Counted from the stretch's first letter, positions 17,538 through 23,920 are shown. The stretch: 64,000 nt of DNA from Cyanobium usitatum str. Tous (GCF_003011885.1 NZ_PXXO01000009.1:1-64000), one strand, 5' to 3'. Numbers and translations are program-made. The notes: generated by a model from the sequence alone, not told the origin.

Positions 17538-17969
17538 ATGGCAGCGACGGTGCTCAACGGTCAACTCCCGAAGTACATCGGCAGCACCGGCGGCCTGCTG
17601 AACTCTGCTGAAACTGAGGAGAAATACGCCATCACCTGGACCAGCCCGAAGGAGCAAGTCTTCGAGCTGCCCACCGGTGGCGCGGCCCACATGAATGAGG
17701 GCGAAAATCTGATGTACTTCGCCCGCAAGGAGCAGTGCCTCGCCCTGGGCACCCAGCTGCGCACCAAGTTCAAACCCCGGATCGAGGACTACAAGATCTA
17801 CCGGATCTTCCCTGGCGGCGACACCGAGTTCCTGCACCCCAAGGACGGCGTTTTCCCCGAGAAGGTCAATGAGGGTCGCACCATGGTTGGTCACAACCCC
17901 CGCCGCATCGGCGCCAACCAAAATCCCGCCAATCTCAAGTTCACCGGCAAGAACACCTTCGACGCTTGA
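17538..17969 (+). CDS. psaD: Photosystem I subunit II PsaD
   Basis: PsaD is the stromal-side photosystem I subunit that docks ferredoxin and stabilises PsaC. The 143-residue protein is full-length and canonical: [68 protein letters not shown] and the C-terminal [17 protein letters not shown]. The 94-base upstream gap should hold its promoter, but I see no unambiguous hexamers. The glycosyltransferase frame begins immediately at the stop. Confidence 0.99.
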
Positions 17970-18887
17970 TTGGCTCTGCTGATCAACCACCTGTTGCAAC
18001 GCGTCAAGATCGGCCGAGTGGGGCTCACGCCCCCCTTGCCTTTGCATGATCGCCACGGAGTTGCCATTGCATTGGTGGTGCGCAATGAAGAGCGCCACAT
18101 TGGTGAGTGGGCCAGATTTCACCGGCTCGCTGGTGTGCGCCATGTATTCGTCTACGACGACGCCAGCAGGGACAACACGCTGGCGGAGCTTCGCCGCCAT
18201 TTAGGCCCCCAGCAACTCACCGTGATTCCCTGGGGGCAGCGCCTCAGCGACCGCAGCCTAGGCCGTCCCATCCACAACCAGGTTTTGGCTTACGCCCATG
18301 CCGCCGCCAATTTTGGTGGTGCGTTCCGTTGGCTGGCCTGCATCGACGCCGATGAATTTTTAGTGCCTGTTAAGGCCAACTCGATCGATGCCGCGTTAGC
18401 CCACCTCGGGCCGGAGGTGGTGAATGTGTCGCTGCCGTGGCACATGTTCGGCCGCTGCGGCCACCAGGATCCCCCTGCTGGGGGTGTAGTAAGCAATTAC
18501 CTGCAAAGAGCCCGGAACCCTATGCAGGACGTGAATTTCAAGTGCATTGTTGACCCTTGCCAGCTCAGCGGTGTGCGCGTTCACACCATGGACACCGGCC
18601 GACCCGCGCTCACCTGGAATGACCGTGGCGAGGCTTTTCGCGTAAAGCAACGGCACAAGTCTTTGTTCTATTCGGCCGAGCACCTGCAACTCAATCACTA
18701 CTACACGCGCTCAAAGGAAGAGCTGGAACAGAAAATTAGTCGCGGTCCCAACCTCGAGGCGAAGCGGCAGGATTATCGGCGTAAGGTGATGCGGACAGTT
18801 ACCCGGATCGAGGCGGGCACCAGGGAGGACCGGCAGGCGATCAATTTCCTGGAGAGAGCCGCGGCTGTGAACTCAGTTCAAAACTGA
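17970..18887 (+). CDS. Glycosyltransferase family 2/92-like
   Basis: A 305-residue GT-A type glycosyltransferase. It has the nucleotide-sugar-binding core VAIALVVRNEERHIGEWARF (31-50), VFVYDDASRDNT (59-70) and the DxD-containing IDADEFLVP (125-133), then KCIVDP, LNHYYTRSKEEL and KISRG. This layout matches GT92/DUF23-type enzymes acting on surface glycans. The frame opens at TTG 17970 directly after the psaD stop; GTG 18018 is an alternative start. It ends in a 10-base overlap with the convergent sulfotransferase gene. The grouping with three sulfotransferase-like genes suggests a sulfated polysaccharide pathway. Confidence 0.85.
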   Translation: MALLINHLLQRVKIGRVGLTPPLPLHDRHGVAIALVVRNEERHIGEWARFHRLAGVRHVFVYDDASRDNTLAELRRHLGPQQLTVIPWGQRLSDRSLGRPIHNQVLAYAHAAANFGGAFRWLACIDADEFLVPVKANSIDAALAHLGPEVVNVSLPWHMFGRCGHQDPPAGGVVSNYLQRARNPMQDVNFKCIVDPCQLSGVRVHTMDTGRPALTWNDRGEAFRVKQRHKSLFYSAEHLQLNHYYTRSKEELEQKISRGPNLEAKRQDYRRKVMRTVTRIEAGTREDRQAINFLERAAAVNSVQN

Positions 18888-19639
18888 TAACCGAACTGGT
18901 CGATCTCGGAAGCATAGAGGCGTCCAATTAGAACTTCTAGCTCTGGTGTGTAGTGGTTTCGGTATCCCCCGGGGGCACCAGCCGGTCGATGCCCTCCCTT
19001 GGAGCGGGGCATCCAACCGTCCCAATCCATCCCAGCGTCCCGAAAAAATAACTGCAGATCTTGCTGGAGCTGCTCAAAGCGCACCACCCGATCAGCCACC
19101 ACCTGATCGTTGATGGTGTACATCGGCCAGTTGTCGTGGAAGGCGAGGGGCACGATGCCGCCGAGGTCATGGCCAGCGGCCAAAGCCTCCACATAGGCGG
19201 CAAAACTGGGAGGAGTCCTTTGACGCTGAATGCGCCAGTAGTAGTCAGACACCGTCTTGTCCCAGGGGTTGCGAATGATCGCCAACTTGCGAAAGCTCGC
19301 CCACTCCTGCGGAAAAGTCGCCGCAACGCAAGCAGCGGGGGCATGGGGAGGCTTGCGGCCGAGCATGGGCCTGTAGGCATGATCTACAGCTCTTGTGAGC
19401 GCACGGCGATAGGCACGAGGCCCGAGCAGGCGGAACAGGGAGAGCACTCCACGACTCTGACGCCAGGCGATGCGGCGCACCCGTTGGGTGAGCGGGATGC
19501 CCAGGGCCATGGTTTCGGCCAAGGCACTTATCTGCAGATCTTCAGGTCCAAGCAATCGGGCCAACGAGACACACAGCGAGCTGCCCGCCGCTTTGCGGCA
19601 GTGCAACACGATCAGCTGATGGCGCTCACTAATGATCAT
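18878..19639 (-). CDS. Sulfotransferase family protein
   Basis: A 253-residue PAPS-dependent sulfotransferase-like protein. The 5'-phosphosulfate loop is seen in LHCRKAAGSSLCVSL (12-26) and the 3'-phosphate motif in LAIIRNPWDKTVSDYYWR (119-136), with RFEQLQQDLQLFF later, a typical pattern for carbohydrate sulfotransferases of the Sulfotransfer_2 type. No signal peptide or membrane anchor is obvious. ATG 19639 is just 6 bases from the stop of the next upstream gene on the same strand, so the two probably form an operon. The acceptor is unknown, and a cell-surface polysaccharide is plausible from the neighbouring glycosyltransferase. Confidence 0.85.
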   Translation of the reverse strand: MIISERHQLIVLHCRKAAGSSLCVSLARLLGPEDLQISALAETMALGIPLTQRVRRIAWRQSRGVLSLFRLLGPRAYRRALTRAVDHAYRPMLGRKPPHAPAACVAATFPQEWASFRKLAIIRNPWDKTVSDYYWRIQRQRTPPSFAAYVEALAAGHDLGGIVPLAFHDNWPMYTINDQVVADRVVRFEQLQQDLQLFFRDAGMDWDGWMPRSKGGHRPAGAPGGYRNHYTPELEVLIGRLYASEIDQFGYQF

Positions 19640-19645
19640 CAGACT

Positions 19646-20380
19646 TCAGCGCTGGGCCCGTGGGCGGTGGTGGGCCAACCAACTTTTGGCAGCTTGCAGC
19701 CATTCAGGCAGTTGGCGGCCACGGCCGCGGCCGATGTGGCCATAGTGCTCAGGGCTTAAGCCGTAGCCGGGCAAGCGGGCGATCAAGGCCTCAATCGGAT
19801 CACTGTCAATGTTGAATTCCACCAGCTGCTCCGGCCGATCCCTCATGAAGCTCCGTACCGCCGCCAGGTGAGCATCCCACTCAGCGCGCCAAGCATCAAT
19901 CAGCAGTCTTTGGCTAACAAGTTTCCGGACCTTTTGTTCGCGCATGGCAAACTCACCGTGGCCATGTAACAAACGAGATCTTATCCAATCCTCACGATCT
20001 CTGAAGTTGAGCAGCAAAATTGTATTGGGGTAGTCGCGCAGGATTTCCCGAAACAAGGAATTGGCATCAAAGCTGCCGATATAATTACTGTCAATCAGAT
20101 CGCCGTAGAAAATAAATTGATCTATTCCGGTGAATACGGGCACGCCCGCCTCGACATTTGCCCTCATGATGCCGCCAATCTTGCGGCGACGACGCAAGCG
20201 ACTTGGCAACTTTTGGTGAACTGCGGGATGGCCCGAGAGAGCGAACAACTGGGAGATGCTCCGAGTAGCACACTTATTGAAGCCGATTGCCACAACCTTT
20301 GGGAGAGATAGTGACTGGTTAACAAGTCCTGCCAGAACGCTTTCAGCAACTGACTCAATAATACTTGATATTTCTCGCAA
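19646..20380 (-). CDS. Sulfotransferase-like protein (P-loop variant)
   Basis: A 244-residue protein whose VVAIGFNKCATRSISQLF (29-46) is a sulfotransferase-type P-loop (GxxKxGTxxL class) with CATRS in place of GTTS. It is followed by LLLNFRDREDWIRSR, equivalent to the 3'-PAPS-binding RDP segment. The family is like the Sulfotransfer_4 group. GC content is visibly lower than in the flanking genes, especially 19950-20380. The start is uncertain: TTG 20380 opens the frame and no ATG lies before the P-loop. It is in tandem with the downstream sulfotransferase and 46 bases from a divergent third one. Confidence 0.78.
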   Translation of the reverse strand: MREISSIIESVAESVLAGLVNQSLSLPKVVAIGFNKCATRSISQLFALSGHPAVHQKLPSRLRRRRKIGGIMRANVEAGVPVFTGIDQFIFYGDLIDSNYIGSFDANSLFREILRDYPNTILLLNFRDREDWIRSRLLHGHGEFAMREQKVRKLVSQRLLIDAWRAEWDAHLAAVRSFMRDRPEQLVEFNIDSDPIEALIARLPGYGLSPEHYGHIGRGRGRQLPEWLQAAKSWLAHHRPRAQR

Positions 20381-20426
20381 GCACCAGTACAGTTGCCGAA
20401 ATTACCGTGCTCAATTGGCCGGAACC

Positions 20427-21182
20427 ATGCCCGGATCGGGGCTACTTAGATCCAGCAGCCGTATTGGCGCCAGGCTATTTTCACCCTTCTATCGTCGCTT
20501 CCCCTACCAAGGAGCGATGGATATTTTCAAGCTTGATCCTAGGGGTGCCTACTCGCCGCTTGAGCCATTTTTTTACAATCGTGTACCTAAAGCGGCGAAC
20601 ACCTCCATAACCCAGACCCTCTTCAACCACAGCGCTTATCGCCCTGGACTGGCCCGGCGTGATAATCCAAAATACAAGTTTCAAAGGCCAATTTTTCTCT
20701 CTCCAAATCAAGTACATAAGCTCGAATATGAAGCCTTTAAATTCACCTTTGTGCGCAATCCCTATAGCCGAGTCCTCTCTGCATATCTCGACAAGGTGGG
20801 GCGCAGAAAGCATCAAGGCGTGAGATTTCTGGCATGGGCAGAGGCAAACAGCCAACCAGCCAGCTTTCTGGGATTTTGTCGCTACCTAGATGCAGGCGGA
20901 CTGTTTCTGGACATGCACTGGGCTCCACAAGTAGAGATTCTTTGCTTACCACTCGAATGCTTTGATTTTATTGGGCGAATAGAATCTATCGACCGAGATC
21001 TCAACCAAGTTCTGCAGAGGGTCTTCAAGGTGCAACTGGAAAGCCCACTACCGCAAACAGGCCGACATCACACACAAGCCAATCAAAAGCTCAAAGAGGC
21101 CTATGGGATGGAGGAGCGTCAAATTGTTAATCGTCTCTATGCCACTGATTTCTTAAAGCTTGGCTACCCCCAAGACTTATAA
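20427..21182 (+). CDS. Sulfotransferase family 2-like protein
   Basis: A 251-residue protein with the HNK-1/chondroitin type sulfotransferase motifs: FFYNRVPKAANTSITQTL (48-65) binds the 5'-phosphosulfate and FTFVRNPYSRVLSAYLDK the 3'-phosphate. FIGRIESIDRDLNQVL then matches the usual acidic segment, and the C-terminus has VNRLYATDFLKLGY. GC content from about 20500 to 21180 is distinctly lower than in psaD or trpE, a sign of acquisition. ATG 20427 is chosen; ATG 20517 is also possible. It is divergent from the other two sulfotransferase genes and ends 24 bases before trpE. Confidence 0.85.
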   Translation: MPGSGLLRSSSRIGARLFSPFYRRFPYQGAMDIFKLDPRGAYSPLEPFFYNRVPKAANTSITQTLFNHSAYRPGLARRDNPKYKFQRPIFLSPNQVHKLEYEAFKFTFVRNPYSRVLSAYLDKVGRRKHQGVRFLAWAEANSQPASFLGFCRYLDAGGLFLDMHWAPQVEILCLPLECFDFIGRIESIDRDLNQVLQRVFKVQLESPLPQTGRHHTQANQKLKEAYGMEERQIVNRLYATDFLKLGYPQDL

Positions 21183-21206
21183 AGGCTTCGTCGCACCACA
21201 GGTTCG

Positions 21207-22745
21207 ATGTCCAAATCCGAGGATCAGGCCTTTGGCAACCAGCTCGAGGCTGGCCACAACTTCATACCCCTCTGGAAGCGCTGGCCTGCTGATCTGGAAA
21301 CCCCTCTCACCGCCTGGCTGAAGGCCGGAGCTGGTAGCAGTTATGGCGTGCTGCTGGAGTCGGTGGAAGGTGGTGAGCGCATCGGCCGCTGGAGCTTTGT
21401 GGTGTCTGATCCGCTCTGGACCCTCACCAGCCGGGGCGACCAAAGCGTGCGCCAGTGGCGCACCGGCTCCGAGGAGCGGCTGCAAGGCAACCCCTTCGAC
21501 CTGCTGCGCCAGTGCCTAGAGCCCCTATCGAGCCCGCCGATCCCCGGTCTGCCACCGGTGGGCCAGCTATTTGGCTTCTGGGGCTACGAGCTGATCCGTT
21601 GGATCGAACCCAGCGTGCCGGTGCATCCGGCGGCCGAGGGTGCACCACCTGATGGCTGCTGGATGCTGGCCGACAGCCTGCTGGTGTTCGACCAGGTGAA
21701 GCGCCAGATCACCGCAGTGGCCTACGCCGATTTGAGTGGCGGCCAGGATCCACAGGCCGCCTACGCCGCGGCCGCAGCCCGGATCTCCGGCCTGGAAGAG
21801 CGCATGCACGGCCCCCTGCCCGGAGCCGGCACCCCCCTTAGCTGGCACGACGCCACGGCCGGTGACATCGCTGCCAATTTGCGGACCACCAGCAACGTCG
21901 GCCAGGAGGCCTTCGAGGCCGCCGTGAGCCGCGGAGAAGGGCACATCGAAGCTGGCGACGTGTTCCAGCTGGTGCTCAGCCAGCGGCTGGAAACCCGCAT
22001 CGATCGCGATCCCTTCGAGCTCTACCGCAGCCTGCGGATGGTGAATCCCTCGCCCTACATGGCGTTTTTCAACTTCGGCGGCTGGTATCTGATCGGCTCC
22101 AGTCCGGAGGTGATGGTGAAGGCAGAGCCCACTGCCGCAGGGAGAGTGAAGGCTTCTTTACGGCCAATCGCAGGCACGCGCCCCCGGGGCGCCGATGAGG
22201 CCGAAGACCTGGCCCTGGAGGCGGAGCTGCTGGCTGATCCCAAGGAGCGGGCCGAGCACGTGATGCTGGTGGATCTGGGCCGCAACGACCTGGGCCGCGT
22301 CTGCCAGCCAGGCACCGTCAAGGTGAGCGAGCTGATGGTGATCGAGCGCTACTCCCACGTGATGCACATCGTGAGCCAGGTGGAGGGCCTGCTGGCCGAG
22401 GGCCAAACGGTATGGGACCTGCTGATGGCCTCCTTCCCCGCCGGTACGGTCAGTGGCGCTCCCAAGATTCGGGCTATGCAGCTGATCCACGCCCTGGAGC
22501 CCGACGCCCGAGGCCCATACTCCGGGGTGTACGGCGGGGTTGACCTGGCCGGCGCACTCAACACCGCTATCACCATCCGCACAATGGTGGTGCTGCCCCA
22601 CCCCGAAGGGGGCTGGCGGGTGCAGGTGCAAGCCGGCGCTGGAGTAGTGGCCGACTCCAAGCCCGAACTCGAATACCAGGAAACCTTGAACAAAGCCCGC
22701 GGCATGCTCAAAGCCCTGGCCTGTCTGCTGCCGGCCCAGCCATGA
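21207..22745 (+). CDS. trpE: Anthranilate synthase component I
   Basis: TrpE converts chorismate and glutamine-derived ammonia to anthranilate, the first step of tryptophan synthesis, with TrpG (not in this window). The 512-residue chorismate-binding enzyme shows the N-terminal tryptophan-feedback region (SYGVLLESVEGGERIGRWSF) and the catalytic core FQLVLSQRLE, SSPEVMVKAE, RPIAGTRPRG, VMLVDLGRNDLGRV, and FPAGTVSGAPKIRAM. Its stop overlaps the gshA start by four bases (ATGA). Confidence 0.96.
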   Translation: MSKSEDQAFGNQLEAGHNFIPLWKRWPADLETPLTAWLKAGAGSSYGVLLESVEGGERIGRWSFVVSDPLWTLTSRGDQSVRQWRTGSEERLQGNPFDLLRQCLEPLSSPPIPGLPPVGQLFGFWGYELIRWIEPSVPVHPAAEGAPPDGCWMLADSLLVFDQVKRQITAVAYADLSGGQDPQAAYAAAAARISGLEERMHGPLPGAGTPLSWHDATAGDIAANLRTTSNVGQEAFEAAVSRGEGHIEAGDVFQLVLSQRLETRIDRDPFELYRSLRMVNPSPYMAFFNFGGWYLIGSSPEVMVKAEPTAAGRVKASLRPIAGTRPRGADEAEDLALEAELLADPKERAEHVMLVDLGRNDLGRVCQPGTVKVSELMVIERYSHVMHIVSQVEGLLAEGQTVWDLLMASFPAGTVSGAPKIRAMQLIHALEPDARGPYSGVYGGVDLAGALNTAITIRTMVVLPHPEGGWRVQVQAGAGVVADSKPELEYQETLNKARGMLKALACLLPAQP

Positions 22746-23920
22746 GCGCCCCTCTGCTGCTTAAAGGTTTTGAGGTGGAGCTCTACACCGGCCGTGCCGA
22801 TGGCACGGTGGTGGGCTGCAGCGCCGAGGCTGCGGCCGCCCTCGAGGGGTTCGTAACCGAGCCCGATTGCCGCAACCTCGAATACATCACTCCCCCGGAT
22901 GCCGACTACGCCCGGCAACTGCAACTGCTGCTCGAGCCCCGCCAACGGCTGCGCCGCTGGCTCGCCAGCCGCCAGCTCACCCTGCTCCCCGGCAGCACGC
23001 TGAGCCTGGGGGACAGCCAGCGTTTTGAGCGCTCAGATCCGGCCAATCCGTATCACGGCTACATCGAGGCCACCTACGGCACCAAGGTGGTTACAGCCAG
23101 TGTGCACATCAATCTGGGGCTCACCGCCGGCCACGGCCTCGAGCCAATGACCAGCCTGTTTGCGGGCCTGCGCCTGATGCGCTGCGAAGCGTCCCTGCTC
23201 CTGGCCCTCAGCGCCAGCTCACCCTTTCTCGACGGGGTCGTAACCGCTGCCCATTCCCAGCGCTGGCTGCAGTTTCCCCTGACGCCAGCGGAGGTGCCCC
23301 TGTTCCTGGACCACCAGCACTACATCGACTGGATGGGCGAGCAACTGGCCTTGGGCACGATGCAAAACGTGCGCCATCTCTGGACATCGGTGCGGCCCAA
23401 TGGCGACAACCGGCCCCACGACCTCAACCGCCTGGAGATTCGCATTTGCGATCTGGTCACCGATCCACTCGTGCTTTTGGCGATCACGGCCTTCGCCGAA
23501 CTGCGCCTGCAGAAGTTGATGCGAGAACCGGAGCGCTACGACCCACTCCAGGCCAGCCGCCTGGACCCATCCCAGCTAGCCGCCCTCGCCGATGCCAACG
23601 ACCGGGCCGCAGCCCGCTCCAGCCTTGATGCCACCTTGATGCACTGGCGCAATGGGGCCCCGATCCAGGCTCGAGACTGGCTGGCTCAGGAGCTGGCCGA
23701 TCTGGCTCCACTTGCTCAAGAGCTGGGACTAACCAGGGTGCTCGCCCCCCTGCAGGGCGTCCTTGGCCAGGGCAACCAGGCCATGAGCTGGCTAGCCGGA
23801 CACCAGGCTGGCCTGTCGATCCCGACCCTGCTCAACCAGACCGTCGAGGCGATGGCAAGCCAGGAGGCCGAGCTACTTGAGGCAATCGCCACAGACGGGG
23901 GGCCTGGTCCTTTGGGATGA
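22742..23920 (+). CDS. gshA: Glutamate-cysteine ligase, cyanobacterial type
   Basis: The first enzyme of glutathione synthesis. The 392-residue protein belongs to the cyanobacterial GshA group, which is distant from E. coli Gsh[59 protein letters not shown], and [16 protein letters not shown]. It is coupled at both ends by ATGA overlaps, with trpE upstream and ppc downstream. The link between tryptophan, glutathione and anaplerotic carbon metabolism is positional only. Confidence 0.94.

Follow-up and report, generated by a model that had tools for sequence, protein, structure and literature searches.

How did one glycosyltransferase and three sulfotransferases come to lie between psaD and trpE in a picocyanobacterial chromosome, when did they arrive, and what might they modify? 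A first-pass annotation of the 64 000-nt stretch analyzed here (the window) had proposed a recently acquired, possibly phage- or grazer-related pathway for a sulfated surface polysaccharide. The host genome (G000, 2.5 Mb) belongs to a picocyanobacterial family that also includes Cyanobium. Comparison with relatives shows the genes to be a genuine accessory cassette, of a known kind and patchy in its distribution. We propose that a related genus was probably the source, with transfer by homologous recombination, and that its entry predates the split between the window genome and its congener G015 (probability about 0.6). Sulfated glycans are little studied in this group, for which the locus provides three sulfotransferases as a compact system open to testing.

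Gene content of the locus

Four open reading frames were confirmed at the annotated positions, and these are the only genes between psaD (17538..17969, + strand; photosystem I subunit II, Pfam PsaD 244 bits) and trpE (21207..22745, +; anthranilate synthase component I, Pfam Chorismate_bind 286 bits). The 3.2-kb chromosomal cassette occupies this single intergenic slot and opens with GT (+); ST1 and ST2 follow one another on the − strand, and ST3 (+) points away from ST2, the layout first described. GT (17970..18887, +) is a GT92/GT2_4-type glycosyltransferase with homologs 66–90% identical. It scores 70.1 bits against Glyco_transf_92 (PF01697, cut-off 23) and 55 bits against Glyco_tranf_2_4 (PF13704, cut-off 27.5), thus passing the curated Pfam cut-offs, and its DxD-type metal motif, DADEF, is conserved in the GTs of all ten cassettes. 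GT and ST1 (18878..19639, −) lie tail to tail with overlapping 3′ ends in the window.

The sulfotransferase assignments are firmest for ST3 (20427..21182, +; GC 0.49), a Sulfotransfer_2 protein (PF03567) at 81.9 bits against a cut-off of 22. Its 5′ loop reads RVPKAANTS and it also carries VRNPYSRVLSAYL; the family keeps PKAANT (5′-PSB) and VR(N/D)P.SRVLSAYLDK (3′-PB). The mechanical ORF opens at 20256; homologs begin near 20427, which is probably the start. ST2 (19646..20380, −) is of Sulfotransfer_4 type (PF17784, 25.4–26 bits, cut-off 22.8), and all nine family members match (best 8.3e-9). It contains GFNKCATRS and LNFRDREDWIRSRL, and its family keeps the 5′-PSB and 3′-PB motifs as NKC.TRS and LN.RDRE.W.RSR; the first ~28 aa, with a TTG start, are uncertain. 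The best Foldseek matches of its model (pLDDT 75) are sulfotransferases, at modest values (E 1.3e-3, TM 0.55). For ST1 the profile search divided: the window protein alone reaches only 16.7 bits against the Sulfotransfer_2 cut-off of 22, whereas 9/9 family members match (best E 2.9e-6). Its 5′-PSB-like loop HCRKAAGSS and 3′-PB-like RNPWDKTVSDY are conserved in the family (the former as RKAAGSS), and its AlphaFold model is poor and unreliable (pLDDT 54). Sequence searches against solved structures gave no match for ST3 and weak matches for ST1 and ST2, mostly to sulfotransferases; PCNA matches of ST2 were discounted, covering only about 35–45 residues. The initial identification of one GT92-like glycosyltransferase and three sulfotransferases thus stands, for ST1 only as probable and through its family. 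The three are distinct proteins of Sulfotransfer_2 and Sulfotransfer_4 types with different motifs and are not recent duplicates of one another, in agreement with the earlier view that this is no simple duplication.

Occupied and empty psaD–trpE slots

Each of the 15 congeners of the window genome (genus g1) yielded a PsaD, and we compared the stretch downstream of the gene. In 14 of them psaD and trpE are adjacent across a short spacer with no cassette genes; G015 alone has the cassette. The two genes also adjoin in 15 genomes of the family that represent 14 additional genera. Judged by these empty sites in 14 congeners and 14 further genera, the slot is ancestrally empty, which bears out the proposed insertion between core genes. 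The spacer of the empty congeners is CTATAAAGGC or near-identical, followed by a GC hairpin and T8 conserved in 14/14. A simple terminator scan did not flag this hairpin, and folding of the spacer yields a hairpin that is not significant against shuffles.

Family-wide searches with each cassette gene (400 genomes each) found GT in ten genomes of only two genera, and strong matches to ST1, ST2, and ST3 were restricted to the same two. The carriers are the window genome, G015, and 8/13 genomes of a second Cyanobium genus (g31), always in this slot; the remaining five g31 genomes are empty. The g31 cassettes (VGPU01000008.1, JAGYNF010000021.1, NZ_JAGQCU010000007.1, NZ_JAGQCJ010000021.1, and others) share slot, gene order, and orientation with the window, at 66–80% (GT) and 69–81% (ST1) identity. 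They differ in their higher GC, in a psaD terminator and ATG-started GT retained in 7/8, and in ST3, which is present in four and missing from four. The four genes are hence not an obligate set; each of the ten cassettes has GT, ST1, and ST2 together, oriented alike. Among the empty g31 genomes, G151 still holds ACGACCGGCGCCTATAAAGGC in its psaD–trpE spacer (L163), the last codons of ST3 as found in G225, so that a deletion most likely removed the cassette there.

Age of the cassette

Between the window genome and G015, dS was 0.14 for ST1 (C-terminal part), 0.18 for ST2, and 0.19 for ST3 (C-terminal part), and 0.16, 0.14, 0.14, and 0.15 for the flanking psaD, trpE, the gene at 22742–23920, and ppc, respectively. 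Since the sulfotransferases have diverged as much as their flanks, the cassette is, by this measure, as old as the split of the two genomes. The supposed recent acquisition gains no support from this agreement (0.14–0.19 vs. 0.14–0.16) or from the state of the G015 copy, where a frameshift divides ST1 and gaps and stops disrupt ST3. The G015 cassette (L023, 1839–4010) is decaying, and the conserved part of its ST2 has no standard start codon upstream. On flank genes G015 groups with the empty congener G009 and not with the window genome, which requires losses or repeated exchanges; the cassette is missing from two relatives that are just as close.

The 5′ half of GT diverges more than the rest (76–82% nucleotide identity between window and G015), which suggests a later or separate local recombination there. 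Window positions 17993–18442 are only ~79% identical to G015, and most of the other cassette sequence is 90–97% identical.

Route of entry

The junctions point to exchange within the core genes. On the left, the insert boundary in the window and G015 is native psaD (93–99% identity to congeners for the window gene). The right edge falls at 21171..21189 (+), where the ST3 stop codon lies inside TATAAAGGC, an old spacer motif found at the empty site in most relatives. Beyond it, the first ~20 codons of trpE (21207..21266, +; MSKSEDQAF...) are of a type foreign to the genus, closest to g31 (DQAF) or G015, and the gene is native after this boundary: nucleotide identity to the congeners G007 and G009 is 67–73% over codons 1–20 and 97–100% over codons 21–40. 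Because psaD is native on the left and trpE is foreign then native on the right, we favor homologous recombination in which the crossovers fell within the flanking genes; shared flanks most likely allowed the cassette and ~60 nt from the start of trpE to be exchanged as one tract. No end repeats were found, nor a tRNA gene or integrase beside the cassette (the nearest tRNA is over 6 kb away). It is thus no mobile island of the integrase or tRNA type, and transposition or integrase-mediated entry was rejected.

As far as sampled, the home of the cassette would be g31, a genus of the same family in which most genomes carry it. Crossovers at the end of psaD and at about codon 20 of trpE would have replaced the native short terminator spacer with the imported tract before the window genome and G015 diverged, with later loss or decay in relatives. 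Gene families, slot, distribution, junctions, and divergence are all observed; from them we infer the direction of transfer. One comparison counts against transfer from g31 as sampled: between g1 and g31 the cassette shares 65–74% nucleotide identity and the flanks 78–83%. Cassette divergence exceeds flank divergence, so that no sampled g31 genome is a near donor, and the donor would be unsampled or the transfer old.

The main rival is vertical inheritance with many losses, in which the cassette was already present in the common ancestor of both genera and later disappeared from most g1 and some g31 species. We consider this unlikely, if the most serious competitor. The slot, order, and orientation common to both genera agree with it, as does the greater divergence of cassette than flanks between genera, expected of old, fast-evolving genes, and the G151 scar documents at least one loss within g31. 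Yet a compact spacer (TATAAAGGC-like motif, GC hairpin, T run) recurs at all 14 empty g1 sites and in most other genera, together with one common type of trpE N-terminus and no ST3 remnants. Vertical descent would need many independent clean losses, each restoring an identical spacer, and would have to accommodate the sharp boundary at codon ~20 of trpE. Entry by recombination remains the preferred reading, and on it the locus would be a small-scale example of picocyanobacteria of different genera trading surface-glycan genes by way of conserved core flanks, with no evident mobile element. Our literature search found no paper bringing psaD, trpE, and Synechococcus together.

The psaD–GT junction

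In seven of the eight g31 cassettes, a GC hairpin with T run separates psaD from a GT that starts with ATG (MLNALLQRIK...; MFN in one). The window genome, G015, and the g31 genome G209 lack the psaD terminator spacer, and the GT frame follows directly after the psaD stop; G209 is tied to the window/G015 type by this absence and by a weak (66%) tree split. Neither G015 nor G209 has an ATG, GTG, or TTG ahead of the conserved part of GT. The candidate starts in the window are a CTG at 17982 and an in-frame TTG alternative at 17970. CTG ATC AAC aligns without gaps to ATG CTG AAC of other homologs, and conservation begins at the CTG, with 14–15 of 16 residues identical from there and 0–1 of 3 before. 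GT therefore probably starts at this CTG, with three codons between it and the psaD stop. Read-through of the psaD stop into GT is unlikely, as the stop differs among the three genomes (TGA, TAA, TGA) and the next three codons are unconserved.

Because the psaD terminator is deleted in this lineage, GT is likely co-transcribed with psaD. Its translation would begin from the non-standard CTG (or the window TTG) a few codons past the psaD stop, probably by coupling, and a CTG start with translational coupling and shared transcription is the simplest reading of the junction. A bolder and less likely reading is that deletion of the terminator and GT leader has wired a surface-glycan gene to photosystem I expression in these three genomes of two genera, through in-frame termination–reinitiation from the CTG. 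Through such a junction, surface chemistry could become tied to photosystem expression. It is rather improbable that GT is instead dead or poorly expressed, its start and leader having been deleted with the psaD terminator and any translation beginning at an internal GTG (18021) without the conserved N-terminus. The missing ATG, GTG, or TTG in G015 and G209 speaks for that outcome; the N-terminal residues are nevertheless still conserved across the three genomes, and GT dN/dS between the window and G015 is 0.11.

Putative function

GT would attach a sugar to a glycan of the cell surface, which the PAPS-dependent ST1–ST3 would sulfate from PAPS, altering surface charge and perhaps how phages or grazers recognize the cell. 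The likely product would be a sulfated surface glycan; effects on phages or grazers are plausible. Enzyme capacity is indicated by the conservation of both sulfotransferase motifs in each ST family, and the genome encodes an APS kinase for PAPS supply. The cassette would modify a glycan made elsewhere, because it has one glycosyltransferase and no export genes. A Wzz-type chain-length protein is encoded elsewhere in the genome. A further sulfotransferase also occurs elsewhere in the genome (Sulfotransfer_3, 48.7 bits, G000:C22:123436-123753, L001).

A close parallel is the synechan (xss) system of Synechocystis PCC 6803, an exopolysaccharide sulfated by sulfotransferases clustered with glycosyltransferases (PMC8205485). 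Both loci are cyanobacterial and place sulfotransferases of distinct subfamilies beside glycosyltransferases, for glycan sulfation that is putative here. The xss cluster, however, lies on a plasmid and has eight glycosyltransferases, Wzx/Wzy/PCP, and regulators, whereas the cassette is chromosomal with a single glycosyltransferase; no Wzx, Wzy, or PCP polymerization and export genes lie between psaD and trpE, so it is not a synechan-type cluster. Like the genomic islands and flexible gene content of marine picocyanobacteria (PMC7522525), the cassette consists of accessory genes between core genes, patchy among strains. It differs from them as a 3.2-kb, four-gene unit in a single slot with no adjoining tRNA, integrase, or end repeats.

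Outside the family, full-length GT homologs (47–61% identity) occur in Rhodobacteraceae (GT92/GT2_4 enzymes, for example of Amaricoccus, Rhodovulum, and Actibacterium) and a few other alphaproteobacterial bins, with no sulfotransferase of the three ST families nearby. This, and the absence of ST3 from half of the g31 cassettes, would fit unrelated accessory genes having gathered by chance in a slot that tolerates insertions, rather than a single pathway. We regard such an assembly as improbable, given that GT, ST1, and ST2 have been kept together in one orientation across ten cassettes of two genera and that the 3′ ends of GT and ST1 overlap in the window. Many Rhodobacteraceae carry the conserved GT92/GT2_4 glycosyltransferase in varied neighborhoods (L120–L149), in one case beside a malonyltransferase-like fabD gene (L132).

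Base composition and viral relatives

The low GC noted at 19950–21180 was confirmed (0.49 vs. 0.64 for the whole window). The lowest-GC 1230-nt stretch of the window starts at 19959, and the lowest block comprises ST3 and the 5′ part of ST2. ST2 and ST3 (GC 0.54 and 0.49) fall far below their g31 copies (0.63–0.71). This low GC is common to the window and G015 and absent from g31, so it would have been brought by an unsampled donor or have arisen before the two genomes split.

The first proposal, that a phage or low-GC donor contributed the genes recently, is the least probable account by far: GC3 of 0.46–0.56 in ST3 and part of ST2 against ~0.80 in the flanks, and matches of PHROG 3347 (Galactose-3-O-sulfotransferase) to ST3 (8e-9) and ST1 (4e-4), speak for it, but the low GC shared with G015 at flank-like dS predates their split, a comparison that already largely refutes it, and the nearest homologs occupy this very slot on Cyanobium chromosomes. 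ST1–ST3 had no match in tblastn searches of 50 697 phage records, and viral contigs held no relatives of GT, ST2, or ST3 and only 21–32% identical relatives of ST1; a phage origin was rejected on these grounds. The cassette is not recent and not visibly phage-derived. The distant ST1-like sulfotransferases (21–32%) occur at 42 loci of uncultured viral contigs (L188–L229).
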